From Streptomyces marinisediminis (GTDB lineage: Bacteria > Actinomycetota > Actinomycetes > Streptomycetales > Streptomycetaceae), in assembly GCF_026262575.1 (NCBI RefSeq), contig NZ_JAPKFL010000002.1:235953-299952 (forward strand): DNA of 64,000 nucleotides, read 5' to 3'. A program made the position numbers and the translations under genes. Positions 30,770 to 45,781 of this stretch are shown here, one piece after another (within the stretch, counting starts at the first letter, position 1; each line of letters begins with the position of its first letter). The notes under the pieces are model-generated. The model was given only the letters and a program-made list of their open reading frames with translations, searched no databases and was not told the DNA's origin.

Positions 30770-31837
30770 TCAGCAGCAGTCGGGGGCCAGGCCGCGCGGG
30801 AGGCCGGTGGCGCCGAAGACCTCCGTCGTCGCCTCGTCCCCGCCCAGCGCGGCGGTGGCCAGCAGCAGGGAGCCGGCCGTCCACGCCGTCTGCTCGCGCG
30901 GCCACACGGCGTCGTCCGCGTAGACGTAGCCGGTCCAGTACATGCCGCTCGGCGCGCGCAGGTGGGTGATGGAGCGCAGGATCTCCACCGCGCGGTCGGA
31001 CTCCCCCATCGCCCACAGGGCCAGGGCCAGTTCGGCGCTCTCCCCGCCCGTCACCCAGGGGTTGGGCACGACGCAGCGCACGCCCAGGCCGGGGACGACG
31101 AAGCGGTCCCAGCCCGCCTCGATGCGCTCCTTGGCGGCCGGGCCGGTGACGGCACCGGTGAGCACGGGGTAGTACCAGTCCATCGAGTAGCGGGACTTGT
31201 CGGCGAACCGCTCGGGGTGGTGGGCGATGGCGTGGCCCAGCCGCCCGGCGGCCAGCTCCCAGTCCGGCTGCGGCTCCTCGCGGTGTTCGGCGATGGCCAG
31301 CGCGCACCGCACGGCCTGGTAGACCGAGGAGCAGCCGGTCAGCAGGGCCTCGGTGCGCACCGTGCCGTCGGCCTCGCGCTTCCAGGCGACCTGGCCGCCG
31401 GGCTGCTGGAGCGCCAGCACGAAGGCGACGGCGGCGGAGACGACGGGCCACATGCGGTCCAGGAAGGTGTCGTCCCCGGTGGCGAGGTAGTGGTGCCAGA
31501 CGCCGACGGCGACGTAGGCGCAGAAGTTGGACTCCCGGCCCCGGTCGGTCGGCGCGTCGGCGGCGCCGTCCGCGTAGGCCGCGTACCAGGAGCCGTCGGG
31601 GAGCTGGTGCTCGGCGAGCCAGCGGTAGGCGGCCTCGGCGCGGGCGTGCTCGCCCGCCGTGTCGAGCGCCATCGCCGCCTCCACGTGGTCCCAGGGGTCC
31701 AGGTGGTGGCCGCGGAACCAGGGGATCGCGCCGTCGGGCCGCTGCTGGGCGAGGATGCCCGCGACCGTCACCGCGGCCTCCTCGGCCGTCAGCACGCCGG
31801 GCAGGACGAGGCGTTCGGTGCGCTCCGGGCTCGTCAC
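30770..31837 (-). CDS. (Alpha/alpha)6-barrel protein, annotated 'prenyltransferase'
   Basis: 355 residues from GTG 31837, overlapping the methyltransferase stop by 4 bases (GTGA). Helical-pair repeats with QQRPDGAIPWF, HHLDPWDHVEAAMALD, QLPDGSWYAAYADG and ESNFCAYVAVGVWHHYL match the terpene-cyclase/GH15-like toroid fold. The acidic residues of the squalene-hopene cyclase DxDD motif are not seen, so a glycan-processing or lipid-handling role is as likely as prenyl transfer. It is the last gene of an operon with a glycosyltransferase and methyltransferase. Confidence 0.8.
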   Translation of the reverse strand: MTSPERTERLVLPGVLTAEEAAVTVAGILAQQRPDGAIPWFRGHHLDPWDHVEAAMALDTAGEHARAEAAYRWLAEHQLPDGSWYAAYADGAADAPTDRGRESNFCAYVAVGVWHHYLATGDDTFLDRMWPVVSAAVAFVLALQQPGGQVAWKREADGTVRTEALLTGCSSVYQAVRCALAIAEHREEPQPDWELAAGRLGHAIAHHPERFADKSRYSMDWYYPVLTGAVTGPAAKERIEAGWDRFVVPGLGVRCVVPNPWVTGGESAELALALWAMGESDRAVEILRSITHLRAPSGMYWTGYVYADDAVWPREQTAWTAGSLLLATAALGGDEATTEVFGATGLPRGLAPDCC

Positions 31838-32595
31838 GCGGCGCCCCCGGCGGAGGGCGCCGCGGTGCGCGGCAGGCGCGGCTTGGTGGCGTAGGCGACG
31901 AAGCTCTTGCCGATGAGCGGGTCGAGCGCGCGCTCGGCGAGCCGGGTGGCCAGTGGCTTCTTCATGATGTCCCACACCAGGAGCTTGTGGTAGGCGCGCA
32001 CCGGCAGCGCCGCGTCCTGGCCGTCCCGGTGCACGCCGAAGGCGCACTTGAGCCACCAGTAGGGCGAGTGCAGGCCGTGCGCGTGGTGGGTGCCGTAGGG
32101 GCGCAGTCCGGCCTCGCGGAGCTTGGCGAGGAGTTCGTGCGCGCGGTAGATGCGGATGTGGCCGCCCTCCACCTCGTGGTAGGCGTCCGAGAGGGCCCAG
32201 CACACCTTCTCGGGGCCGTAGCGCGGCACGGTGACGGCGATGCGGCCGCCCGGGCGCAGCACGCGCACCATCTCGGCCAGCACGCCCTTGTCGTCGGGGA
32301 TGTGCTCCATCACCTCGGAGATGATGACGACGTCGAAGCTGTCGTCGGGGAAGGGCAGCGCCAGGGCGTCGCCCTCCATGGCGGTGGCCGTGGCGCCCGC
32401 CGGGGCCTCGCCGGCCTCCCGCATGGCGGCGAACCAGGTGGCCACCTCGCGGATCTCCGCCGCGTCGCGGTCGAGCGCGACGACGTGGGCGCCGCGCCGG
32501 TAGCACTCGAAGGCGTGGCGTCCGGCGCCGCAGCCCAGGTCGAGGACGCGGTCGCCCGCGGCGAGCGGGAACCGGGAGAAGTCGACGGTCAGCAC
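31834..32595 (-). CDS. Class I SAM-dependent methyltransferase
   Basis: 253 residues from GTG 32595. SAM motif I reads RVLDLGCGAGRHAFE (about residue 17), acidic loop VVALDRDAAEIREV, motif II DVVIISEVMEHIPDD and VRVLRPGGRIAVTVPRYGPE. The N-terminus MLTVDFSRFPLAAGD is typical of the methyltransferases found next to this glycosyltransferase type. It is 43 bases after the GT4 gene and coupled by a 4-base overlap to the barrel protein gene. Its substrate is probably the glycosylated product of the operon, which is unknown. Confidence 0.88.
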   Translation of the reverse strand: MLTVDFSRFPLAAGDRVLDLGCGAGRHAFECYRRGAHVVALDRDAAEIREVATWFAAMREAGEAPAGATATAMEGDALALPFPDDSFDVVIISEVMEHIPDDKGVLAEMVRVLRPGGRIAVTVPRYGPEKVCWALSDAYHEVEGGHIRIYRAHELLAKLREAGLRPYGTHHAHGLHSPYWWLKCAFGVHRDGQDAALPVRAYHKLLVWDIMKKPLATRLAERALDPLIGKSFVAYATKPRLPRTAAPSAGGAA

Positions 32596-32638: not shown

Positions 32639-33985
32639 TCAGGTGCGCGGTCGGGCGGCGGTGCGGGCGATGGCCTCGCGGTAGTGCTCGGCGGTGCCGA
32701 TGGCCGCCTGCCGCCAGGTGAACCGGCTGAGCACCCGGGCCCGCCCGGCCGCGCCGAGGCGGGCGCGCAGCGGGGCGTCGTCGAGGAGGCGGCCGAGGGC
32801 CGCGGCGAGCGTGCCGGCGTCGCCGGGCGGCACCGCCAGGCAGGTCTCGCCGTCGGGCCCGGCGACCTCGGGGATGGCGCCGCCGGTCGTGGCCACCAGC
32901 GGGGTCCCGGTGGCCATGGCCTCGGCGGCGGGCAGCGAGAAGCCCTCGTAGAGCGAGGGGACGCAGGCGACCTGGGCCCCGCGCACCAGGTCGGCGAGGT
33001 CGCGGTCGCTGAGGCCCTTGACGAACTCGACGGGGCGGCGTCCGGTGCGGTCCGGCACGTGCAGGCCGAACCGCTCGATGGCGGCGGCCACCGGCCCGCC
33101 GTCCGCCCGGCGGCCCACGACGACGAGGTGCGCGCCGGGCTGTTCGGTGCGGATCTTGGCCAGGGCCTCCACCAGATGCACCAGTCCCTTGAGCGGGACG
33201 TCGGCGCTGGAGGTGGTGACGATGCGTCCGGGGACCTCGGGGACGGCCGGGTCGGGGGCGAACAGGTCGGTGTCGGCGCCGATGTGCACGACGTGGACGC
33301 GGTCGCCGCGCACGCCGAGGTGGTCGACGATCTCCCGGCGCGAGGTGCCGGAGACGGTGAGCACCGACGGCAGGCGGCGGGCGACGCGGCGCTGCATGCG
33401 GGTGAAGCCGTACCAGCGGCGCACGGAGAGCCGGCGCCTGGCGGTGTCGGCGGCGGCCAGGTCGAGCTCGCGGTCGACGGTGACGGGGTGGTGCACGGTG
33501 GTGACCAGCGGGGCGCCGAGCGCGCCCGGACCGCCGAGGAGCCCGTAGCCGAGCGTCTGGTTGTCGTGGACGACGTCGAACGCGCCGCGGCGGGCGGCGA
33601 GGTGGCGGCGGGCGCGCAGGGAGAACGTCAGCGGCTCGGGGAAGCCGCCGGTCCACATGGTGGCCACCTCCAGCGCGTCGATCCAGTCGCGGTACTCGCC
33701 GCGGCCGGGGGTGCGGAAGGGGTCGGGCTGCCGGTAGAGGTCGAGGCTGGGCAGCTCGGTGAGGGTGACGCCGTCGTCGACGACCGGGTAGGGCTGGGCG
33801 CCGATGACCTCGACGCGGTGGCCCAGGCGCACCAGCTCGCGCGAGAGGTGCCGCACGTAGACGCCCTGGCCGCCGCAGAAGGGGTTGCCCTTGTAGGTGA
33901 GCAGGGCGACGCGCAGCGGGCGGTCCTCGCCGCCGCCGGCGCGCCGGGGTGCGGACGCCGCGTCGCGTATGGCCTCTGCGGTCAC
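32639..33985 (-). CDS. GT4-family glycosyltransferase
   Basis: 448 residues from GTG 33985. A GT-B fold retaining enzyme. The N-terminal domain opens with VALLTYKGNPFCGGQGVYVR (acceptor-side glycine loop). The C-terminal domain contains TSSADVPLKGLVHLVEALAK and the EGFSLPAAEAMATGTPLVAT motif with the donor-binding Glu pair. There is no membrane helix. First gene of a three-gene operon that is divergent from a KstR-like TetR gene. The donor and acceptor are unknown; a lipid-linked or polyketide-like acceptor would fit the regulator. Confidence 0.9.
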   Translation of the reverse strand: MTAEAIRDAASAPRRAGGGEDRPLRVALLTYKGNPFCGGQGVYVRHLSRELVRLGHRVEVIGAQPYPVVDDGVTLTELPSLDLYRQPDPFRTPGRGEYRDWIDALEVATMWTGGFPEPLTFSLRARRHLAARRGAFDVVHDNQTLGYGLLGGPGALGAPLVTTVHHPVTVDRELDLAAADTARRRLSVRRWYGFTRMQRRVARRLPSVLTVSGTSRREIVDHLGVRGDRVHVVHIGADTDLFAPDPAVPEVPGRIVTTSSADVPLKGLVHLVEALAKIRTEQPGAHLVVVGRRADGGPVAAAIERFGLHVPDRTGRRPVEFVKGLSDRDLADLVRGAQVACVPSLYEGFSLPAAEAMATGTPLVATTGGAIPEVAGPDGETCLAVPPGDAGTLAAALGRLLDDAPLRARLGAAGRARVLSRFTWRQAAIGTAEHYREAIARTAARPRT

Positions 33986-34183: not shown

Positions 34184-34882
34184 ATGACCTCTTCCGCCAC
34201 ACCGCCATCGGACCGGCCCCCCGCCCCGCCGACGCCGCCCGGCGCACCCGGCGCACCCGGCGCGACGGGGCACCCGCCCGCCGGGCCCCCCGCCGCACCG
34301 CGCTCCGGACGGCAGGAGGCGCGGCGGCGGGAGATCCTGCGCGCCGCGACGGAGCTGGCCCGCGCGGGCGGCTACGACGCCGTGCAGATGCGCGAGGTGG
34401 CCGAGTCCGCCGGGGTCGCGCTGGGCACGCTGTACCGCTACTTCCCGTCCAAGATCCACCTGCTGGTGGCCGTCCTGCAGGACCAGCTACGCCTGCTGCA
34501 CGCCACGGTGCGCGAGAACCCGCCACGCGAACGGGGCGCGGGAGCCCGCGTGGCGGCGGCGCTGATGCGCGCGTTTCACGCCATGCGGGACGAGCCCCAC
34601 CTCGCCTCCGCGATGGTGCGGGCCCTGACCGCGGCGGACCGCTCGGTAAGCGCCGAGGTCGACACCGTGCTGGCGAGCACGACGGGGATCGTGCTGGAGG
34701 CGATGGGGTCGCGCGAGCCCGTGCCGCCGGCGGCGCTCTCGGCTGTCCGGGTGATCGAGCACACCTGGTTCTCCCTGCTCATCGCCTGGCTCTCCGGCCG
34801 GGCGACGATCGCCACGGTGCGCACCGACCTCGCGACGGTGTGCCGACTGGCCGACGCGCCACCCGGCGCGGGCGAGAACTGA
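34184..34882 (+). CDS. KstR-like TetR-family regulator
   Basis: 232 residues. A Pro/Ala-rich N-terminal tail (1-42) precedes a TetR domain with GGYDAVQMREVAESAGVALG and TLYRYFPSKIHLLVAVL. These segments strongly resemble mycobacterial KstR, the repressor of cholesterol catabolism that senses a sterol-derived CoA ester. The start ATG 34184 lacks a clear Shine-Dalgarno; internal starts would shorten the disordered tail only. A KstR-consensus site lies in its promoter. No sterol-degradation genes occur in this window, so the ligand may be another acyl-CoA. Confidence 0.85.
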   Translation: MTSSATPPSDRPPAPPTPPGAPGAPGATGHPPAGPPAAPRSGRQEARRREILRAATELARAGGYDAVQMREVAESAGVALGTLYRYFPSKIHLLVAVLQDQLRLLHATVRENPPRERGAGARVAAALMRAFHAMRDEPHLASAMVRALTAADRSVSAEVDTVLASTTGIVLEAMGSREPVPPAALSAVRVIEHTWFSLLIAWLSGRATIATVRTDLATVCRLADAPPGAGEN

Positions 34883-35076
34883 GGGCGCACGGTAGGCGCG
34901 CGTGCACGCCCCGTATGCGCCCCCTTACCTCCCCGTGGCCGACTTTGTATGGTCGCTCCCGAGCCGGGCCGACTTCAATGGCGCTGTCGCCGCCCCGGTA
35001 GGGCCACGCGCCTCGGGGTAGACGGCAACAGCACGGCAGTCAGGGCTGGTTGCGGGATTGGCGGAGGGAAGCGTCA
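34883..35076. other. ramR upstream region
   Basis: About 190 bases between the TetR stop and ramR, with somewhat lower GC. It must contain the ramR promoter and any developmental regulator sites. I see two GACTTTGTATGG / GACTTCAATGG-like blocks (34941-34952 and 34970-34981) spaced 29 bases, which may be regulator half-sites. Weak evidence. Confidence 0.3.
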
Positions 35077-35682
35077 GTGATCCGGGTGTTACTCGTGCAC
35101 GACACACGCCTGTTGAGATCGGGACTGGCCGAACTGCTCAGCAAGGCACAGGACATGACCGTGAGCACCGCACCGTGGAAGCGGGCGGGCCGCGCCGCGC
35201 GCTCCACCGGGGCGGACGTGTGCGTGGCCGACGTCGAGGAGGGGGGCACCGGCGACCAGCGGGACCTGGACGCGCTGCGCCGTGAGATACCCACCCCCTC
35301 CTGCCGCCTCCTGGTCCTGGCCAGCCCGGGGCGCCCCGGGCCGCTGCGGCAGGCGTTCGAGGCGGAGGCCCTGGGGTTCGTGAACAAGGACGCCAGCCCC
35401 GAGGAGCTGTTGACCGGGATACGGCAGGTGGCCAAGGGCGAGCGCTTCGTCGACGCCTCGCTGGCCTTCGGCTTCCTCCAGGCCACCCAACTGCCGCTGA
35501 CCCCCCGCGAGCTGAGCGTGCTGTCCCTGGCGGCCGAGGGGGCGTCGGTGTCGGAGATCGCCCGTTCGCTGCACCTGAGCAACGGGACGATCCGCAACTA
35601 CATGTCAGCGATCACCCGGAAGACCGGAGCCCGCAACCGGGTGGACGCCATCTGCATCGCCCAGCGCTCCGGCTGGCTCTGA
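35077..35682 (+). CDS. ramR: RamR/AmfR response-regulator-like activator
   Basis: 201 residues from GTG 35077, with GGAGGG upstream. An N-terminal receiver domain (VLLVHDTRLLRSGL, CVADVEE with the would-be phospho-Asp, FVNKDASPEELL with the conserved Lys) and a C-terminal LuxR/NarL helix-turn-helix (LTPRELSVLSLAAEGASVSE, NGTIRNYMSAITRKTGA). Length and position next to ramCSAB identify the activator of the SapB/AmfS operon. Codon 5 is TTA (35089-35091), so translation should need the bldA tRNA. No partner kinase is nearby, as usual for this orphan regulator. Confidence 0.93.
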   Translation: MIRVLLVHDTRLLRSGLAELLSKAQDMTVSTAPWKRAGRAARSTGADVCVADVEEGGTGDQRDLDALRREIPTPSCRLLVLASPGRPGPLRQAFEAEALGFVNKDASPEELLTGIRQVAKGERFVDASLAFGFLQATQLPLTPRELSVLSLAAEGASVSEIARSLHLSNGTIRNYMSAITRKTGARNRVDAICIAQRSGWL

Positions 35683-37608
35683 GCGGGCCGCCGCCGGGCC
35701 GTCTGTTCCGGCCGCCCCTTCACCCCCGGGCTCGTCCCCGGCCCCGGACTCGTCCCCGGTCCCGGATTCCCCGCCGCGTCCGTGCGCGGGCTCGTCCCCG
35801 GGCGCGTTCTCCGCCCCGGGCGTGGCCCCGCCTCCGGTCCCCTCACCGCCGCCGCTCCCCTCACCCGGCGCGCTCCAGGTCCCGTCCCAGCTTCCGGCCA
35901 GCTCGCGGTAGAGCGCGGAGGTCTTCGCCAGCTCCGCGGGGGTGCCGCACCGCGCGCGGGCGCCGTCCAGCACGAGCACGCGGTCCGCGCGCCGGGCCGA
36001 GCTCATCCGGTGGGCGATCACCACGAGCGTGCCGGAGCGCGCCCGGAAGGCCGCCTCCGCGCGGGCCTCGGCGGCCGGGTCGAGGTGGCAGGTGGCCTCG
36101 TCCAGCACCACCAGCGGCGCGGGGGCCGCGTACGCCCGGGCCAGCGCGAGCAGTTGCCGCTCCCCCGCCGAGAGCCGGTCCGGCGCCACCTCGGCGTCCA
36201 GCCCGCCCAGGCGGGCGGCGAGCGCGGCGGCCCCGGTGGCCCGGAGCGCCCGGTGCAGCACGGCGTCGCCGACCGGGCCGCGGCACAGGTAGGCGAGGTT
36301 GGCGCGCAGCGTGCCGGAGAAGACGTACGCCTCCTGCGGGACGAGCGCGACCGGACCGCGCACGGCCAGGTGCCCCGCGCTCGGCGCGAGCAGCCCCGCC
36401 AGGAGCTGGGCCAGCGTGGACTTGCCGATGCCGCTCGGCCCGACCACGGCCAGGTGTCCGCCGCGCGGCAGACTCAGGTCCACGCCGTCCAGCACCGGGT
36501 GCGCGCGCCGCCCGTAGGCGAAGCTGACACCGCGCAGCTCCAGCGCCGCGCCCGGGTCCCGGGGGGCGGGCGGTGGGTGCGGCACGGCCGGCGGGGCCGC
36601 TCCCCCGGTGCCGCGCAGCCGTCCGACGACGACCGCGAGCCGCGCGCCCGCGTTGCCCAGGCCGTGCACCAGGCTCTCCAGGGCGGGCAGCAGCGACTGC
36701 AGCAGGTAGGTCAGGGCCCCGGCCAGCGCGCCGGTGCTGACCCCGCGGGACAGCAGCCAGGGGGTGAGCAGCAGGAGCAGCACGACCGGCAGCCGCCCGC
36801 CGACGCCCAGCGCCACCGCCCGGCTCACGCCCCAGCGCGCCAGCGCCCCGGCCGCGCGGCGTTCGGCGTCCACGTGGGCCCGTGCCCGGGCGCGCGTAGG
36901 GGCCTGGGCCCCCGCGGCCACCACGTCCCGCAGCCCGCCCGCCGTCTCGCTCAGGTGCTCGGCGATGGCCTCGTCGGCCACCAGGAAGTCCCGCTGCCGC
37001 CGCGCCAGCGGACGCAGCGAGAACCCGAAGACCGCGAGCCCGAGCACCAGCGGAGGCACCACCACCAGCAGCAGCAGCGGGTGCAGCGAGGCCATCCCGA
37101 CCAGCGCGGCGGCGGAGGTGAAGACGAAGGCGCGCCCGGCCATGAGCAGACCGGCGAAGCTGTCCCTGGCGATCTCCACCTGGTGCGTCAGCCGGGAGAC
37201 GGCACCGGAGTCCCGGGCGCGCCCGCGGCGGACGGCGGCGTGCAGGTCGCTGCCCACGACGCGCTCCACCAGCAGGTCGCGCAGCGGCTCGGCCAGGTCG
37301 GCCACCGCCCGGTACACGCGCCCGGTGCCCACGGCGCCGACGAGCACGCCCAGCGCGCCCACGCCCAGCCAGGCCAGGCCGGCCCCGGCGTCCCCCCGCA
37401 GGAAGCCGTCGTCCAGGGAGTGCGCGACGGCCAGGCCGAGCAGGAGGGTCTGCGCGGCCTCCACCACCGACCAGCCCGCGAGCGCGCCCAGCGCGCGGGG
37501 ACGCCGCCACAGCCGCCGGGCGCCCGCCGCGAGCAGGCCGCGGGCGCCGAACTCTCCGCGCCCCGTGCCGGTGCGTGCCGGGTCCTCGCCCGCGGGGGCC
37601 TCACGCAT
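35605..37608 (-). CDS. ramB: Lanthipeptide ABC exporter subunit (RamB/AmfA-like)
   Basis: 667 residues. A half-type exporter: a six-helix membrane domain (about 35-320) and an ATPase with Walker A GPSGIGKST, signature LSAGERQ, Walker B LVVLDEAT and switch IAHR. It would pair with RamA to export the modified RamS. The start ATG 37608 overlaps the ramA stop by 8 bases. The C-terminal 90 residues are a Gly/Glu/Pro-rich tail; the last 26 codons are antisense to the end of ramR. A frameshift near 35690-35870 that lost an earlier stop is possible. Confidence 0.9.
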   Translation of the reverse strand: MREAPAGEDPARTGTGRGEFGARGLLAAGARRLWRRPRALGALAGWSVVEAAQTLLLGLAVAHSLDDGFLRGDAGAGLAWLGVGALGVLVGAVGTGRVYRAVADLAEPLRDLLVERVVGSDLHAAVRRGRARDSGAVSRLTHQVEIARDSFAGLLMAGRAFVFTSAAALVGMASLHPLLLLVVVPPLVLGLAVFGFSLRPLARRQRDFLVADEAIAEHLSETAGGLRDVVAAGAQAPTRARARAHVDAERRAAGALARWGVSRAVALGVGGRLPVVLLLLLTPWLLSRGVSTGALAGALTYLLQSLLPALESLVHGLGNAGARLAVVVGRLRGTGGAAPPAVPHPPPAPRDPGAALELRGVSFAYGRRAHPVLDGVDLSLPRGGHLAVVGPSGIGKSTLAQLLAGLLAPSAGHLAVRGPVALVPQEAYVFSGTLRANLAYLCRGPVGDAVLHRALRATGAAALAARLGGLDAEVAPDRLSAGERQLLALARAYAAPAPLVVLDEATCHLDPAAEARAEAAFRARSGTLVVIAHRMSSARRADRVLVLDGARARCGTPAELAKTSALYRELAGSWDGTWSAPGEGSGGGEGTGGGATPGAENAPGDEPAHGRGGESGTGDESGAGDEPGGEGAAGTDGPAAARSEPAGALGDADGVHPVAGSGLPGDR

Positions 37609-39349
37609 CGGCCGCCCCCGCGGCGTGGCCGGCGGGCGGGCCGGTGTCGGCGTCGCCCGGGGGCTGCGCCGGGTCGGCCGTGAACACCGCGCGGTAGTCC
37701 GGGTCGCGCCACAGCCGGGCGTGCGGGGCCAGGGCGCGCAGGCGGCCCGCGTCGAGCCAGGCCACCAGGTCGGCACGGGCGGCGGTGGTGGCGCGGTGGG
37801 CCACCACGAGCTGGGTGCAGGCGCGGTCCGGGTCGAAGAGCACGGAGGTGACCTGCCGTTCGGTGCTGGTGTCCAGGCTGGAGGTGGCGTCGTCCAGGAT
37901 GAGCAGACGTCCCTGGTGGGCGAAGGCCCGGGCGAGGCCGAGGCGCTGCGTCTCCCCGCCGGAGAGCGGGGCGTCGGCGCAGGCGGTGGCGTAGCCGTCG
38001 GGCAGGGTGCGGATGAAGCCGTCGGCGCAGGCGGCCCGGGCGGCGGCCCGGACGGCGGCGTCGCCCGGCGGGGCGGGGCCGAGGCCGATCGTCCCGGCGA
38101 GTGTGCCGCCGAGCAGGGCGGGACGCTCGAAGGCGTAGCCGACGGCGGCGCGCAGCGCGGTGGCGTCGACGGAGTCCAGCGGGACGCCGTCGAGCAGCAC
38201 GGTGCCCGCGCTGGGTTCGGCCAGCTTCCCGGCCAGCCGGGCCAGTTCGGACTTGCCCGAGCCGGAGCGCCCGACGATCGCGACGGTGGCACCGCCGGGG
38301 ACGGTGAGGTCCACGGCGTCCAGCACCGTGGCGCCGTCCCGCACCGCGCTGACGCCGCGCAGCTCCAGCCGCCCGGGGCCGTCCGGGAGCGGGGTGGTGC
38401 CGTAGGGCACGGCGGGCACGGCGTGCACCTCCGCCAGCCGCTGCGCGGACGCGCGGGCCCGCACCAGCGCGGCGATCCGGCCCGTCAGCACGCCGATGCC
38501 GCCGGCGAGCACGGCGTAGCGCGCGGCGGCGAGCAGGTCGCCGACGCTGAGTCCGCCCGCGGCCAGCAGCAGGCCGGCCGCGGCGACGACGGCGAGCTGG
38601 AGCAGCGGTACGAGCGCCGCGGCCTGCGCGGCGGCCCGGCCCTGCACCCGCCACATGCGGTACCCGGCGCGGCTCAGTTCGGGCAGCGGACTGAGGACGC
38701 GGGTGCGCTCGCGCTCCAGCGTGCCGGCCGCGGCGACGGTGCGGGCGCCCGACAGCGCCTCGGCCAGCCGTCCGGCGATGCGGCCCTGCGCCTGCTGGTA
38801 CCGGGCGACCGCGTCCCCCGAGGTGCGCGCGAACGCCCGCAGCAGCAGGACGAGGACGGGAGCGCCGAGGAAGAAGACGGCCGCCAGCCGCCAGTCGATG
38901 AGCGCGAGCGCGGTGATCCCGCCGAGCGGGAGGACGAGGGCGGCCAGGAGCGCGGCGGCGGTGGCGGGAGCGGTCCCCGCCTGCGCGGCGAGCGCGGTGC
39001 CGCGGGTGACCAGGTCGCCGGTGCTGAAGCGGGCGGCCCCGGCCGGTCCGACGGCCAGCACGTGGCCGGTCAGGCGGTTGCGGAGCCGGGCGGTGGCGTG
39101 GGCGCTGGTGGTGCCGGTGAGGACGGTCTCCACGGCGTCGAAGACGAACAGCGCGGCCAGCAGCCCGGCGCTGACCAGCAGCCAGCCGGTGGCGGGCGCG
39201 TCGGCCAGCAGGAGGTCGAGGGTGCGGCCGAGCGCGGCGGGCAGCAGCAGGGTGGCGCCCGCGTCGGCGGTGGTGATCAGGGTGAGGGCGGCGGCACGGG
39301 GAGCGCCGTGCCGCAGGGCGTCGAGGAGGAGGCGGTCGGCGGGGCTCAT
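37601..39349 (-). CDS. ramA: Lanthipeptide ABC exporter subunit (RamA/AmfB-like)
   Basis: 582 residues from ATG 39349. An ABC exporter half: membrane domain 1-310, then an ATPase with Walker A GRSGSGKSE (Ser-Glu where Ser-Thr is usual), signature LSGGETQ, Walker B LLILDDAT and VAHR. Walker B has Asp-Asp in place of the catalytic Asp-Glu (LDDAT), so this subunit may be the weak site of an asymmetric RamA/RamB heterodimer, while RamB keeps LDEAT. It is separated from ramS by a 400-bp gap with a hairpin. Confidence 0.91.
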   Translation of the reverse strand: MSPADRLLLDALRHGAPRAAALTLITTADAGATLLLPAALGRTLDLLLADAPATGWLLVSAGLLAALFVFDAVETVLTGTTSAHATARLRNRLTGHVLAVGPAGAARFSTGDLVTRGTALAAQAGTAPATAAALLAALVLPLGGITALALIDWRLAAVFFLGAPVLVLLLRAFARTSGDAVARYQQAQGRIAGRLAEALSGARTVAAAGTLERERTRVLSPLPELSRAGYRMWRVQGRAAAQAAALVPLLQLAVVAAAGLLLAAGGLSVGDLLAAARYAVLAGGIGVLTGRIAALVRARASAQRLAEVHAVPAVPYGTTPLPDGPGRLELRGVSAVRDGATVLDAVDLTVPGGATVAIVGRSGSGKSELARLAGKLAEPSAGTVLLDGVPLDSVDATALRAAVGYAFERPALLGGTLAGTIGLGPAPPGDAAVRAAARAACADGFIRTLPDGYATACADAPLSGGETQRLGLARAFAHQGRLLILDDATSSLDTSTERQVTSVLFDPDRACTQLVVAHRATTAARADLVAWLDAGRLRALAPHARLWRDPDYRAVFTADPAQPPGDADTGPPAGHAAGAADA

Positions 39350-39358
39350 CGGTGACGT

Positions 39359-39428
39359 GCTCCTCGGCGTTTCCCGGCTTCTCGGCGTCGCGGGCTCCTC
39401 GGCGTTTCCCGGCTCCTCGGCGTCGCGG
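39359..39428. repeat. Two-copy 35-bp tandem repeat before ramA
   Basis: 39359-39393 and 39394-39428 are identical except for one base; each contains CTCCTCGGCGTTTCCCGG. The array lies directly upstream of the ramA start codon, inside the ramS-ramA gap, so it becomes part of the ramA leader. Confidence 0.75.
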
Positions 39429-39664
39429 GACTCCTTCGGTCCCGTGGGCTCCCGGCGTCACGGGGCTGCGCGGCCCCGTGGGCCGCCACTCCCGTGGGCC
39501 TCCGGCTCCGTGAACCGCTGCCGCGCCCCGGGCGGCGGGCGCCGCCGCCGGGACCGGGTGCGGCGCGCGGGCGGCGCCGGGCGGTGCGCGGCGCCACCGC
39601 GCGGGCCCCTCAGGGCCGCACACGGCGGCGCCCGGCCCCGCGCGGGGCGCGGAACCGGGGGTAC

Positions 39665-39698
39665 GGTCCCGGGCGGGTACGAGCCGCCGCCCGGGACC
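39665..39698 (-). terminator. Attenuator-like hairpin after ramS
   Basis: A 12-bp perfect stem (39665-39676 with 39687-39698) with a 10-nt loop, about 57 bases past the ramS stop. As a partial terminator or RNA stabiliser it would keep precursor mRNA in excess over the exporter genes. Confidence 0.65.
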
Positions 39699-39754
39699 GG
39701 GCCTGCGTGACGCGGCCTCAGCGGGTCACGTCAGCAAACCGCCGGCTGACCGGA

Positions 39755-39871
39755 TCAGAGGCACAGGATGGTGCTGGCACCGCTGTGCTTGTCGCAGGCG
39801 AGCAGGCTGACGTTGCTGCCCGCGTCGGTGCTGTCCGGGGTGTCCATCTTCTGCAGGTCGAGAAGCGCCAT
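39755..39871 (-). CDS. ramS: SapB/AmfS-family class III lanthipeptide precursor
   Basis: 38 residues from ATG 39871. The leader begins MALLDLQKMDTP, the LDLQ box that class III synthetases recognise. The core holds two Ser-X2-Ser-X3-Cys motifs, SNVSLLAC and SGASTILC, each able to form a lanthionine- or labionin-type ring, and ends in LCL like S. griseus AmfS. AAAGGA precedes the start. The mature product should be an amphiphilic surfactant peptide needed to raise aerial hyphae. It lies between ramC and ramA. Confidence 0.96.
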   Translation of the reverse strand: MALLDLQKMDTPDSTDAGSNVSLLACDKHSGASTILCL

Positions 39872-39933
39872 GGTTTCTCATCCTTTCTCTGTAGGGACGG
39901 GGTTGTGCTTCCTGACCCCTGGCCGGGGCAGGT

Positions 39934-42600
39934 CTATTGGGGCCGCGAAGGCGGCTCGGGCCGCCGGAGCGGCGGGAGGAACGGCAACCGCACGGGCGCG
40001 TCGTGGCGGGCGGCGCCCACCGCGAGCAGGCAGCCGGCGGTGCCGGTGTAGAGGTCCATGGACAGGCGCATCATCTGGTCGCCGGGGAAGGCCAGCCCGT
40101 CGCCGTAGGCCATGCCGTACCAGTTCAGGGCGTCCAGTTGCGCGTCGAGGTCGGCGCGGGTGGCGCCGGGCGCGGTGGTGCGGGCCAGGTGCCACACCAT
40201 TCCGGCGCGGCCCCGGAAGAGGCCGGGCTGGGCGTAGAAGCGGGAGCGGGCGGCCGGCAGGATGGCCTCCCGGGCCCGCTCGAAGTCCTCCTCGCCGGGG
40301 CGCAGGGCGAGGTAGTCGTCGAGGACGGCGGCGATGCCCACGCTGCCCGCGCCGAGGTAGGGCATGGTGCGCGGGCCCTCGTCGACGTGCAGCGCGCCGT
40401 GCCGGTCGGGCACGCAGCGCTCCAGGTCCCGGCGCAGGGCCTGCGCGGCCAGGTCCAGCAGGCCAAGGTCGCCGGTGCGTTCGTGCCGGCGCAGCGCGAG
40501 CAGCGCGGTGCCGCTCGCCCCGTGCAGCAGTCCGGCGCGCGGGATGCGTCCGTCCGAGCCGGCGGCCCGCGCGACGGCGTCGGCGGCGTGCCGCAGCGCC
40601 TGGTCGGCGGCGTCGTGCAGCGCCGGGTCGCCGGTGCGCGCGCCCAGGTGGTCCAGGGCGAGGCCGACGCCGGGCAGGCCGCTTTCGAGGTCGTGGCCGA
40701 GGCGGTGCCAGCGTTCGGCCAGCACGCGGTCGACGAGCGTGGCGGCGCGCTCGGTGTGGCCGAGCCGGTCCAGCACCAGGGCGACGCCGAGCAGTCCGGT
40801 GTACAGACCCAGCGGGGTGCGCGCGGACGGCTGGGCGGTGTGGTCCAGCAGCCACTGCTCGCCGGTCTCGTAGCGCGGGGCGCCGGTCTCGGCGAGCGCG
40901 TACAGCACACCCGCGGCACCGTAGGCCAGACCGAGTCCGGCGCCGTCGGCGAACTGGGCGATGTCACCGGGGAAGAGGCGGTCGTCGCGCTCGGGGGTGG
41001 CGGAGGCGAGCAGGGCGCGCACCATCGCGTCCCGGCTGCGCGGCCAGTCGCCCGGCGCGGTGGGCACGGCCGGGGCCGTGCCGGGCGCGGACTCCGCGTC
41101 GGCGGACGCGGTACCGGCGGGAGCGGGCGCGGGCACGGGGGCCTGCGGCGCACCGGCGCCCTCGCGCGGCACCGCGCGCCCCTCGATCTCGGCGACGGCG
41201 TCGTCCAGGAACTCCCGGGGCACGTCGGGGAACTGCTCGCGGATCACCTGTGCCAGATGGGCCGCCTTGCGCCGGTCGACCGCGAGCAGCGTGGTGACGG
41301 GCAGGAAGAGCGCGAGCCGCAGGCAGGCCAGGGCGTAGGTGTCGATCGCGACGCCGCGGCGGTCGCCGGGGGCGATGAAGCCGGGGTGTGCGACGGTCTG
41401 CCGGGGGTCGTCGGCGATGGGCGCGGCGGCCTCGAAGTCCAGCAGGGCCACGGACTTCTCGTCCGGCGCCACCATGATGTTGAACATGTGCAGGTCGTTG
41501 AAGACCAGCCCGCGCTCGTGCACGACGCTCACCGCTTCGGTGACCGCGCGGTGGATCGCCAGGGCCCACTGGGTGTAGTCGGCCACGGCGCGCGGGTCGG
41601 GGTCGTCGGCCAGCAGCGGGTGGCGCTGGGCGTAGAAGGTGTTGAGCGGCTGGCCGGGCAGGAAGTCCATGACCAGGAAGCGGTGGCCCTCCAGCGTGAA
41701 CCAGTCCCGCACGCCGGGTGCCACCTGGCTGCCGGCCAGCCGGTCCAGCGCCGCCTTCTCGCGCTCCAGCCGGCGCACGGCGTCGGCGCCGTCGGCGGCC
41801 AGCCCGGCGTCGGGGCGGCCCTCCTTGAGCACGACCTCCTCGCCGGTGCGCGTGTCGGTCCCCGCGTAGACGCCGCCGCCGTTGGAGAAGTGCAGGGCGC
41901 GCTCGATGCGGTAGGGCAGGTCGGCGACGGTGGAGGAGTTGCGGGCGTCCAGGTGCGGCTGGAGGAACGGCGGCAGCGTCACCCACTCCGGCACGTGGAA
42001 GACGGGGTCCTTGCGGTCGGGCACCAGCTCGCCCCGGCCGTTCTCGACGGCGGGCACGAGCTGCCCGTGCTCGTTGACGCAGTTGCGGGGGGCGAAGCCG
42101 CCGTAGCGCACGTACAGCGGCCCCTGGTTCCAGCGCAGGTCGGTCAGGACGTACGGGCCCGGCTCCCCGGCGAGCTGCTCGTCGAGCTCGCGCAGCACCG
42201 TGTGGAGCTGCTCCTCGTCCACCGGGTAGAGCGTGACCGCCTTCCCGGAGGTGGCGCGGCTGGCGTACTTGGCGTTGCGCAGGTGCAGCAGGTGCAGGTC
42301 CGGCACGAACTTGAAGGGGATGCCGCGGGGCACGCAGTAGTCCCAGACGCGGCCGGCCACGGCGTCGGCGTTGGCCAGCGTGGCGGAGACGTGGACCTTC
42401 CAGCCCTGGGCCGGGAACGTGCCCTCGTCCGGGCGCAGCTCCAGCCAGTCGCCGTGCCGTGCGTGGCGCCAGCCGGAGGGCACGGTCCGCCGTGCCGTCC
42501 GCAGGGTGGCGTCCCGGTCCCCGGAACCGGCGGAGAGCCGGTCAGGAGTCTCGTAGAAGACCCTGTCCGCCAGGCAGTACGCCTCGTACCGGCTGTCCAT
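39934..42600 (-). CDS. ramC: Class III lanthionine synthetase (RamC/AmfT)
   Basis: 888 residues from ATG 42600 with AAGGGGGA upstream. Three parts: an N-terminal lyase-like region (1-220), a Ser/Thr-kinase-like domain with Lys259 (VVLKE), NDLHMFN (Asp369/Asn374) and DFE (Asp388), and a C-terminal LanC-like cyclase (about 540-888). The cyclase lacks the zinc-binding Cys-His set: GLLHGASG and NWYGMAYGDG appear where LanC has its ligands, as in class III enzymes. It phosphorylates and dehydrates Ser in RamS and closes the rings. An Ala/Pro linker (about 505-545) joins kinase and cyclase. Confidence 0.96.
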   Translation of the reverse strand: MDSRYEAYCLADRVFYETPDRLSAGSGDRDATLRTARRTVPSGWRHARHGDWLELRPDEGTFPAQGWKVHVSATLANADAVAGRVWDYCVPRGIPFKFVPDLHLLHLRNAKYASRATSGKAVTLYPVDEEQLHTVLRELDEQLAGEPGPYVLTDLRWNQGPLYVRYGGFAPRNCVNEHGQLVPAVENGRGELVPDRKDPVFHVPEWVTLPPFLQPHLDARNSSTVADLPYRIERALHFSNGGGVYAGTDTRTGEEVVLKEGRPDAGLAADGADAVRRLEREKAALDRLAGSQVAPGVRDWFTLEGHRFLVMDFLPGQPLNTFYAQRHPLLADDPDPRAVADYTQWALAIHRAVTEAVSVVHERGLVFNDLHMFNIMVAPDEKSVALLDFEAAAPIADDPRQTVAHPGFIAPGDRRGVAIDTYALACLRLALFLPVTTLLAVDRRKAAHLAQVIREQFPDVPREFLDDAVAEIEGRAVPREGAGAPQAPVPAPAPAGTASADAESAPGTAPAVPTAPGDWPRSRDAMVRALLASATPERDDRLFPGDIAQFADGAGLGLAYGAAGVLYALAETGAPRYETGEQWLLDHTAQPSARTPLGLYTGLLGVALVLDRLGHTERAATLVDRVLAERWHRLGHDLESGLPGVGLALDHLGARTGDPALHDAADQALRHAADAVARAAGSDGRIPRAGLLHGASGTALLALRRHERTGDLGLLDLAAQALRRDLERCVPDRHGALHVDEGPRTMPYLGAGSVGIAAVLDDYLALRPGEEDFERAREAILPAARSRFYAQPGLFRGRAGMVWHLARTTAPGATRADLDAQLDALNWYGMAYGDGLAFPGDQMMRLSMDLYTGTAGCLLAVGAARHDAPVRLPFLPPLRRPEPPSRPQ

Positions 42601-43047
42601 CGTCCCCCTTCGGTGGGCTGCGAGCGCCGGACCCCGTCTCGTGCGGGTCACCCGGGGCGGGAGGCCCCGGTGCGGCGCGACACAGACGTTTCCATCCCGG
42701 TGCGTAACGGAGTAGTCACGGGTGTCATGAAGGAGGTGTGAAGAATGCACACACGACTCCCCCACGGACGGGTCAGTGACAACGCGTGCGGAGCGCTTTA
42801 CCGCACGTGTCCGCGCGGGCGACAGTGGTGTACGTCGGACGCGCCCCGCCCCGCACCGGCCCGGCGGCGCTCCCACGCCACGTCGGCCCGAGGCCCCACG
42901 GCCCGCGCGACCTGTCCGAAGGGCGGCACCCGGTGCTCGCCCGGGACGGCGGAGACCACACCGGCGACGCGGCACCGCCCGGCGGCCGGTGCCGCGTCGC
43001 CGACCGGGGCTGCCGGGGTGGCCGGGGTGGCCGGGGTGGCCGGGGTG
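42601..43047. other. ramC promoter region and spacer up to the island
   Basis: About 450 bases. It must carry the ramC promoter and RamR sites near 42601-42740. A plus-strand frame starts at 42745 with a very good Shine-Dalgarno (AAGGAGGTG at 42729-42737) but its protein is Arg/Pro-rich and ends within the repeats, so it is listed separately with low confidence. The last 36 bases are a 9-bp tandem array. Confidence 0.45.
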
Positions 43048-44400: not shown

Positions 44401-45249
44401 TCACCCGAGTGAGTCAATGGCACCGGTGATCAGCGTGCGTGCGTGCTGCCCGTAGACGGCCATCCTCGCCAGCTCCGCGAAACCTTTCTCGTACTGAGCG
44501 ATCTCCGTCGGGGCCGTGATGGTCAGCGCGGCGGTCAGCAACTCCACGCCGACCTGTCGGTCATCGAACAAGGTGAACGTCTCCTGCGGCCACATCGAGC
44601 GCGTTCTACGGGCGGGGACGACCCCGAGCGACACAGCGGGGAACGCCATTGCGGCGAGCAGATACCCAAGCTGCCCCGCCATCACATCCGGACCACCCAT
44701 GACGTGGTGGAGTACGGCCTCTTCCACCACGAACGCGAACCGCCGGCCGGGCGCCCGGATGATCTGGTTACGCGTTATCCGGGCCTCGACGGCCTCCGCC
44801 ACGTCGTCAGGGGTCTCGTCGAACCGCCTGATACTGCCGAGTAGAGCCGTCGCGTACTCGTGTGTTTGGAGAAACCCCGGGATCACGGAGGAGCAGTAGA
44901 TGCGGAACTGCTGTGTCCGCTCGTACAGCGGAACGCGGGATCGCTGAAGTTGGCGGAGCCCGCTTCGCTGACGGCGGCGCCACTCGACGTACAGAGACTC
45001 CGCGGTTCGGGATGCTGCGATCAGGTCGGGCGCCTGGTCTTCCGCGCCGCACGCCCGGCACCACGCCCGGATGTCGTCGTCGGTCGGCGGTGTGCGGGCG
45101 TTCTCCAGGCGGGATACCTTGGACGGCTGCCATCCCGACGCCGCCGCCACCTGTCGTCCCGTCATCCCGGCGTCGAGACGCAGGTCCCGTAGGCGCGCGG
45201 CGACGGCGTCACGCGCGGCCTGAGCGCTGTGAGGCGGGACGACGGGCAT
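44401..45249 (-). CDS. XRE-family regulator with DUF5753 domain
   Basis: 282 residues from ATG 45249. An N-terminal XRE helix-turn-helix (AVAARLRDLRLDAGMTGRQ, ASGWQPSKVSRLENAR, about 14-60) is followed by a DUF5753 domain with FRIYCSSVIPGFLQTHEYA and the C-terminal VGVELLTAALTIT. WhiJ-type regulators of Streptomyces share this architecture and act with small partner proteins in development and metabolism. Here the neighbours are a DUF6879 protein and an 80-residue protein instead of the usual DUF397. The DUF6879 stop lies 4 bases before its start. Confidence 0.9.
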   Translation of the reverse strand: MPVVPPHSAQAARDAVAARLRDLRLDAGMTGRQVAAASGWQPSKVSRLENARTPPTDDDIRAWCRACGAEDQAPDLIAASRTAESLYVEWRRRQRSGLRQLQRSRVPLYERTQQFRIYCSSVIPGFLQTHEYATALLGSIRRFDETPDDVAEAVEARITRNQIIRAPGRRFAFVVEEAVLHHVMGGPDVMAGQLGYLLAAMAFPAVSLGVVPARRTRSMWPQETFTLFDDRQVGVELLTAALTITAPTEIAQYEKGFAELARMAVYGQHARTLITGAIDSLG

Positions 45250-45253
45250 GCGC

Positions 45254-45781
45254 CTACGGCGTGTAGTTTGCGTGTGGTACGGCGCGCTCCCAGACGGCGT
45301 CGAACGCCGCCGCATGGCGAGCGACCACGTCGGGGTCGTCTTCGAGGGACTGGCCGACCAGCTCCCCGTTACCGCTGAACATCCCGTACCGGATCAGGCG
45401 GTCGTCGAAAATCCACAGGTCGTTGCCCGGAAGTAGAAGGTCCGACGCTTGCGAGCGGGGCAGCCATCGTACGTCCTCCCCCGCCTCCACGTTCCGGTAC
45501 GTACATGCGTACTCGTGGAGGATGTACTCACTCAACGGCTCGGAGACAACGCGCGCACGGCGAACTGTCACGCCCCGGTGGACGGCGTCGACGACCGCGT
45601 CGTGGAACGCTCCCCACCACTCTTCCCGGGGCCTGTCGCGCGGGTCGTCACCGGCCCTCCAGGCGCGGAACTCCTCGTCCTCACTCGGAATCGCGTACCC
45701 GTCCCGGGTCTCCAGGTGAACGGCTGTCCGCGTGCACGCTCCCAGCAGTTCAGCGAACGGCGGAACCGTCTGCGACGTCAC
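45254..45781 (-). CDS. DUF6879 family protein
   Basis: 175 residues from GTG 45781. A soluble protein with FAELLGACTRTAVHLETRDGY, EFRAWRAGDDP, a conserved RARVVSEPLSEYILHEYACT and DLWIFDDRLIRYGMFSGNGE near the end. This is the pattern of DUF6879, found beside XRE/DUF5753 regulators in actinobacteria and suspected to be the effector half of regulator-partner pairs. It overlaps the 80-residue gene by 32 bases and nearly abuts the XRE gene, so the three form one operon. The biochemical function is unknown. Confidence 0.85.
   Translation of the reverse strand: MTSQTVPPFAELLGACTRTAVHLETRDGYAIPSEDEEFRAWRAGDDPRDRPREEWWGAFHDAVVDAVHRGVTVRRARVVSEPLSEYILHEYACTYRNVEAGEDVRWLPRSQASDLLLPGNDLWIFDDRLIRYGMFSGNGELVGQSLEDDPDVVARHAAAFDAVWERAVPHANYTP

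Follow-up and report, generated by a model that had tools for sequence, protein, structure and literature searches.

A SapB/AmfS-type class III lanthipeptide gene cluster in Streptomyces marinisediminis and its conserved promoter box, hairpins and antisense gene overlap

Genes of the cluster and its relatives

We analyzed a window of 64,000 nucleotides (nt) from Streptomyces marinisediminis (NZ_JAPKFL010000002.1; genome of 5,646,503 bases), the whole stretch of DNA in which all positions below are counted. The window contains the genes of a lanthionine synthetase (ramC), its precursor peptide (ramS), two ATP-binding cassette (ABC) exporter halves (ramA and ramB) and a LuxR-type activator (ramR), in the order ramC-ramS-ramA-ramB with ramR convergent. 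A preliminary description had claimed a complete five-part SapB/AmfS-type class III cluster at 35077-42600, and the genes, the family models and the gene order agree with that claim. The features are as follows (aa, amino acids):

35077..35682, + strand: ramR/amfR-like LuxR-type activator, 201 aa; GerE over cut-off
35605..37608, - strand: ramB-like ABC exporter half, 667 aa; ABC_tran over cut-off
37601..39349, - strand: ramA-like ABC exporter half, 582 aa; ABC transporter domains
39755..39871, - strand: ramS, SapB/AmfS-family precursor, 38 aa; LLDLQ leader box, predicted core SNVSLLACDKHSGASTILCL
39934..42600, - strand: ramC, class III lanthionine synthetase, 888 aa; RamC_N, kinase and zinc-less LanC-like domain

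The locus is very probably a complete SapB/AmfS-type class III lanthipeptide cluster, predicted to make a two-ring hydrophobic surfactant peptide that likely aids the formation of aerial hyphae. Its relatives were examined in the best 80 of 114 RamC relatives from one RamC scan (62 loci from Streptomycetaceae and 18 from other families), chiefly Streptomyces, plus Actinomadura, Actinoallomurus and Micromonospora relatives. These keep the same gene order. Among the 73 loci that extend 3 kb or more downstream, 68 have ramA and ramB counterparts there, and five (L028, L038, L039, L054 and L057) do not. Of the 70 that extend 5 kb or more, 67 have a convergent ramR counterpart downstream; L038 and L054 have none, and in L079 the match lies upstream. 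A two-motif precursor, that is, a small open reading frame with two Ser/Thr-X2-Ser/Thr-X2-5-Cys motifs, adjoined ramC in 79 of the 80 loci, the exception being L038.

Some relatives depart from the five-gene layout. L028, L039 and L057 have ramC, a precursor and ramR without a ramA/ramB match between them, and are thus clusters without an exporter of their own. The ramC relatives of S. palmae (L054) and S. harenosi (L038) are without ramA, ramB, ramR and the promoter box described below within 8 kb downstream; the former retains a precursor, and the latter has none by the filter used. Two to three tandem precursors with near-identical cores accompany one synthetase in L072, L074, L079, L080 and L084, which lie outside Streptomycetaceae.

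RamC scored 1128.5 bits against the class III model NF038151 (cut-off 575) and was also over the cut-offs of PF25816, PF00069 and PF05147. The kinase residues had been numbered Lys259, Asp369 and Asp388, correctly, and the cyclase described as without zinc ligands is so at the motif level, RamC having six Cys but no WCYG or CHG motif around any of them. Both motifs do occur in three of the four further LanC-like proteins of this genome (L001-L004, on contigs C13, C98, C59 and C75), L004 showing CHG alone by the search used. A class IV (LanL) or other synthetase cluster merely resembling class III might be read from the match of RamC to the class IV model NF038150, but this match reaches 356.7 bits against a cut-off of 650, whereas the class III score is well over its own, and the zinc motifs are absent; on these grounds the class IV reading was rejected, and we give it next to no chance.

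RamS passed the family models NF033212 (50.9 bits; cut-off 25) and PF19402 (51.9 bits; cut-off 24.3), scores that, like that of RamC, are far beyond chance, and the leader box and the two Ser-X2-Ser-X3-Cys motifs that had been described for it are present. The systems for SapB (ramCSAB/ramR of S. coelicolor) and AmfS (amfTSBA/amfR of S. griseus) belong to these family models too and share the gene content, the leader box and both S-X2-S-X3-C motifs; we take their core residues to differ from those of the window core. The nearest cores belong to Streptomyces sp. JJ66 (L006; SNVSLLICDKHSGASTILCL, 1 of 20 residues different), which has the same five-gene order and a RamC 83% identical to that of the window, and to S. 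chumphonensis (L077; SNVSLLACDKVSSASTILCL, 2 of 20 different; RamC 77% identical). The JJ66 leader is two residues longer and different; read by eye, the precursor of genome G202 is the same as that of JJ66. A precursor search of 295 genomes of the genus (E-value at most 0.001, with a query so short that many are missed) returned matches in 28 genomes, the best other match being 87% identical, and the core strings had no match in the open-licence literature searched.

The preliminary description had called the precursor new. This stands in the narrow sense that no identical core was found among the precursors compared, but the nearest core differs at a single residue and the family is very large: the 2026 durhapeptin paper counts more than 4,000 SapB/AmfS-family precursors at NCBI, and reports the five-gene layout, the two SXXSXXXC motifs and morphogen activity for relatives (PMC13380574). 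Durhapeptin itself, from S. durhamensis, shares this layout and both motifs and has the core TGASTASLLSCVSAASVLLCL (same paper). The linker between the motifs is DKH in the window core and a single V in durhapeptin; because DKH is charged, the window core is less hydrophobic. Since core residues differ between species throughout the family, such differences are its rule and no sign of a new kind. The novelty of the core is modest, and the cluster is real, complete and ordinary, one more member of the SapB/AmfS family.

Promoter box and hairpins

Three conserved blocks lie upstream of ramC, namely an imperfect palindrome, a direct repeat TGACA-N3-GTGACTGT, and a third block of the form TGGAAATCTC, and hairpins lie between ramS and ramA:

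42737..42751, - strand: block 1, imperfect palindrome TGTGCATTCTTCACA (family form GTGCGTTCCGCAC), conserved upstream of ramC
42714..42727, - strand: direct repeat TGACACCCGTGACT, likely RamR operator, conserved
42681..42694, - strand: block 3, here TGGAAACGTCTGTG, conserved upstream of ramC
39664..39740, - strand: two adjacent GC-rich hairpins after ramS, from folding; likely partial terminator

The pattern TGACANNNGTGACT (TGACA-N3-GTGACT) had one match in the whole genome, upstream of ramC, and a reversed control pattern also had one. In the 450 bases before ramC, a relaxed form of the box was present in 55 of the 62 Streptomycetaceae loci and 1 of the 18 others, compared with 59 of 5,690 background windows; a strict form was present in 33 of the 62, in none of the 18 and in no background window. 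A longer box pattern, searched in 246 genomes of the genus, gave 80 sites in 76 genomes, compared with 6 sites in 5 genomes for a control pattern, and 27 of the 30 sites examined, out of these 80, sit 67-118 bases before ramC. The other three (L132, L142 and L145, in Streptomyces genomes) are not upstream of ramC, and may be further targets or chance.

Because the repeat is single in the genome and is enriched upstream of ramC in Streptomycetaceae, TGACA-N3-GTGACT is likely an operator of RamR. RamR reportedly binds three sites before ramC. A direct query of the open-licence literature for a RamR box gave no match, the original RamR and AmfR papers being outside its scope, and no sigma-70 promoter turned up when 34880-42900 was scanned.

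The repeat could instead be a site of MtrA, a regulator that in S. coelicolor binds ahead of ramC and that recognizes GTNAC-type direct repeats (PMC5650626); the same paper describes RamR as activating ramC directly. The published MtrA repeat has a period of 11 bases (6 plus a spacer of 5; PMC5650626), whereas the period here is 9, and a plain MtrA site was rejected on this spacing. Unlike the site of a global regulator, the exact box has a single match in the genome. L038 and L054, the two Streptomyces loci in which no ramA, ramB or ramR lies within 8 kb, do not have the box either, although their ramC may belong to a different subfamily. We regard an MtrA site as possible but improbable.

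Several observations count against the RamR operator as well. The window box lies 127 bases before ramC, outside the range of 67-118, and ends in ACTAC rather than ACTGT, so that the longer pattern misses the S. marinisediminis genome. The relaxed box is missing in 7 of the 62 Streptomycetaceae loci, five of which have a form with at most three mismatches; the remaining two, without a box even at three mismatches, are again L038 and L054. It is also missing in 17 of the 18 loci of other families, though most of these have a RamR homolog.

The 102 nt after ramS fold at -60.2 kcal/mol (z-score -3.0), and none of 200 dinucleotide shuffles folded as well. Across the loci, the 110 bases 3' of the precursor had a z-score below -1.5 in 67 of 78 sequences, compared with 1 of 80 control stretches taken from within ramC; this many-locus test used mononucleotide shuffles. 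The hairpins are likely a partial terminator that would lower ramAB relative to ramCS.

RamR and the antisense overlap of ramB and ramR

RamR matched GerE at 60.9 bits, over the cut-off, and Response_reg at 27.3 bits, below the cut-off of 30.2, the mark of a weak receiver. This receiver is atypical: it has His8-Asp9 where an acidic pair is usual, and retains Asp52 and Lys104. In an alignment of 69 sequences (the window RamR and 68 homologs, 55 of the 69 from Streptomycetaceae), Asp52 was present in 65 and Lys104 in 61, and the first acidic pair was mostly His-Asp. Homologs of 37-51% identity adjoin the clusters of Actinomadura and relatives.

Codon 5 of the window ramR is TTA, a feature that the preliminary description did not mention. 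The TTA codon predicts that ramR would need the bldA transfer RNA (tRNA) and that the cluster would be developmental. A TTA codon is found somewhere in ramR in 33 of the 69 sequences and 29 of the 55 from Streptomycetaceae, spread over 17 positions of the alignment, although shifts in the alignment may account for some of these; this variation suggests that the codon was gained more than once and that bldA control has come and gone. As a point against, neither of the two nearest relatives, JJ66 and S. chumphonensis, has a TTA in ramR, so that bldA control is not conserved even within this small clade. Most streptomycetes have a TTA in ramR or ramC (PMC4255298).

At their 3' ends, ramB and ramR share 78 base pairs (bp; 35605-35682) in antisense orientation, again unmentioned before, and JJ66 and S. 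chumphonensis have the same 78-bp overlap. A query of the open-licence literature for such a ramB/ramR overlap gave no paper. Where both genes are present, they overlap in 40 of the 51 loci from Streptomycetaceae and in 13 of the 14 from other families, and the overlap is exactly 159 bases long in 31 of the 51; the values for L036 and L053, whose RamB alignments stop short, are unsure. Codon 150 of ramR, opposite which the commonest ramB stop lies, is TCA in 33 of the 55 rows, i.e. in 33 of the 48 serines at this codon; elsewhere, TCA encodes 32 of the 682 remaining serines of ramR and 32 of the 1,649 serines of ramC. The window clade has a codon other than TCA at 150, and its ramB stop lies opposite ramR codon 177, which is TCA in 3 of the 55 rows.

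We slightly favor the view that this overlap is a functionless, neutral by-product of a genome rich in guanine and cytosine (G+C). When the synonymous codons of ramR were redrawn, an average of 92% of draws left the antisense frame open to the same extent or further, and synonymous-site conservation was 0.650 in the overlap compared with 0.669 in neighboring non-overlapping ramR; by this comparison with adjacent synonymous sites, no protein-level constraint on the RamB tail was found. Against neutrality, the rare TCA codon at ramR 150 keeps the ramB stop, and redraws gave the same stop in 2.7% of cases on average. The retention of TCA at the ramB stop is suggestive, the species not being independent. 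It would fit a self-limiting switch, which we consider doubtful: RamR would act at one operator in the whole genome, the operon that it turns on would end within ramR on the opposite strand, and transcription reading through ramCSAB would yield an antisense RNA to the DNA-binding part of ramR that brakes the activator, the rare serine codon keeping the ramB stop for this reason.

Predicted pathway, genomic context and meaning

The genes, their family, their order in other species and the conservation of the box, hairpin and overlap are observed, whereas we infer from sequence every step of the chemistry, binding and function of the ram cluster. RamC would bind the LLDLQ leader and, following the path of the family, phosphorylate and then eliminate Ser19, Ser22, Ser30 and Ser33, after which the zinc-less cyclase would link these serines with Cys26 and Cys37. 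The product would contain two labionins or, at equal mass, two lanthionines and two dehydroalanines. With four dehydrations the calculated mass is 1958.97 Da for a 20-mer from Ser19, 2015.99 Da with Gly18 included and 2087.03 Da with Ala17-Gly18. RamA and RamB would form the exporter; the ABC_membrane match of RamB, at 20.5 bits, is below the cut-off of 28. No C39 leader peptidase domain is listed among the domain-model matches of RamA or RamB, and the leader is therefore probably cut by a protease encoded elsewhere. RamR would turn the operon on, likely at TGACACCCGTGACT, and the hairpins after ramS would likely make ramC-ramS more abundant than the exporter genes in the transcript. The exported peptide would likely lower surface tension, allowing aerial hyphae to emerge.

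It tells against this pathway that no peptide was detected from the intact, comparable cluster of S. durhamensis on the single medium used (PMC13380574). The cluster could thus be intact yet silent, or its peptide a species-specific signal or weak antibiotic rather than a surfactant morphogen; in the same paper durhapeptin was undetected in its own host and active on only some species, and in the window RamR depends on a rare TTA codon. However, the five genes are intact, the promoter and the hairpin are conserved, and induction of aerial hyphae is the activity given there for SapB, AmfS and durhapeptin S26T (PMC13380574). We consider a silent cluster or a different activity unlikely, and retain as likely a surfactant that aids aerial hyphae.

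Beyond ramR, the window continues with the following genes:

34184-34882: TetR regulator, just beyond ramR
32639-33985: glycosyltransferase
31834-32595: methyltransferase

Counterparts of these genes were found in 36 (TetR), 37 (glycosyltransferase) and 35 (methyltransferase) of the 80 loci, and the eight matches listed for each were all on the ramR side. Since these genes recur near ramC-type clusters, the site is common in Streptomyces. The preliminary description had pointed to a context different from that of S. coelicolor, where the ram locus is SCO6681-6685 (PMC4255298); with ramR-side flank genes in 35-37 of the 80 loci, this argument is weak and no indication of novelty, and a special genomic site was rejected on the same count (about 36 of 80). 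On the ramC side, the genes tested recurred in the JJ66 locus only. A regulator with HTH_31 and DUF5753 lies there at 44401-45315 (- strand), an architecture that we take to be WhiJ-like.

The peptide is one more core in a large family, and the window and JJ66 cores, a pair differing at one residue, offer a clean test of morphogen specificity between close species. The parts worth following are the promoter box and the ramB/ramR overlap, and the broader interest lies in regulation: a short and almost unique box conserved over Streptomycetaceae provides a direct, testable operator candidate for RamR/AmfR, and a feedback, testable in S. coelicolor, is suggested by the antisense overlap.

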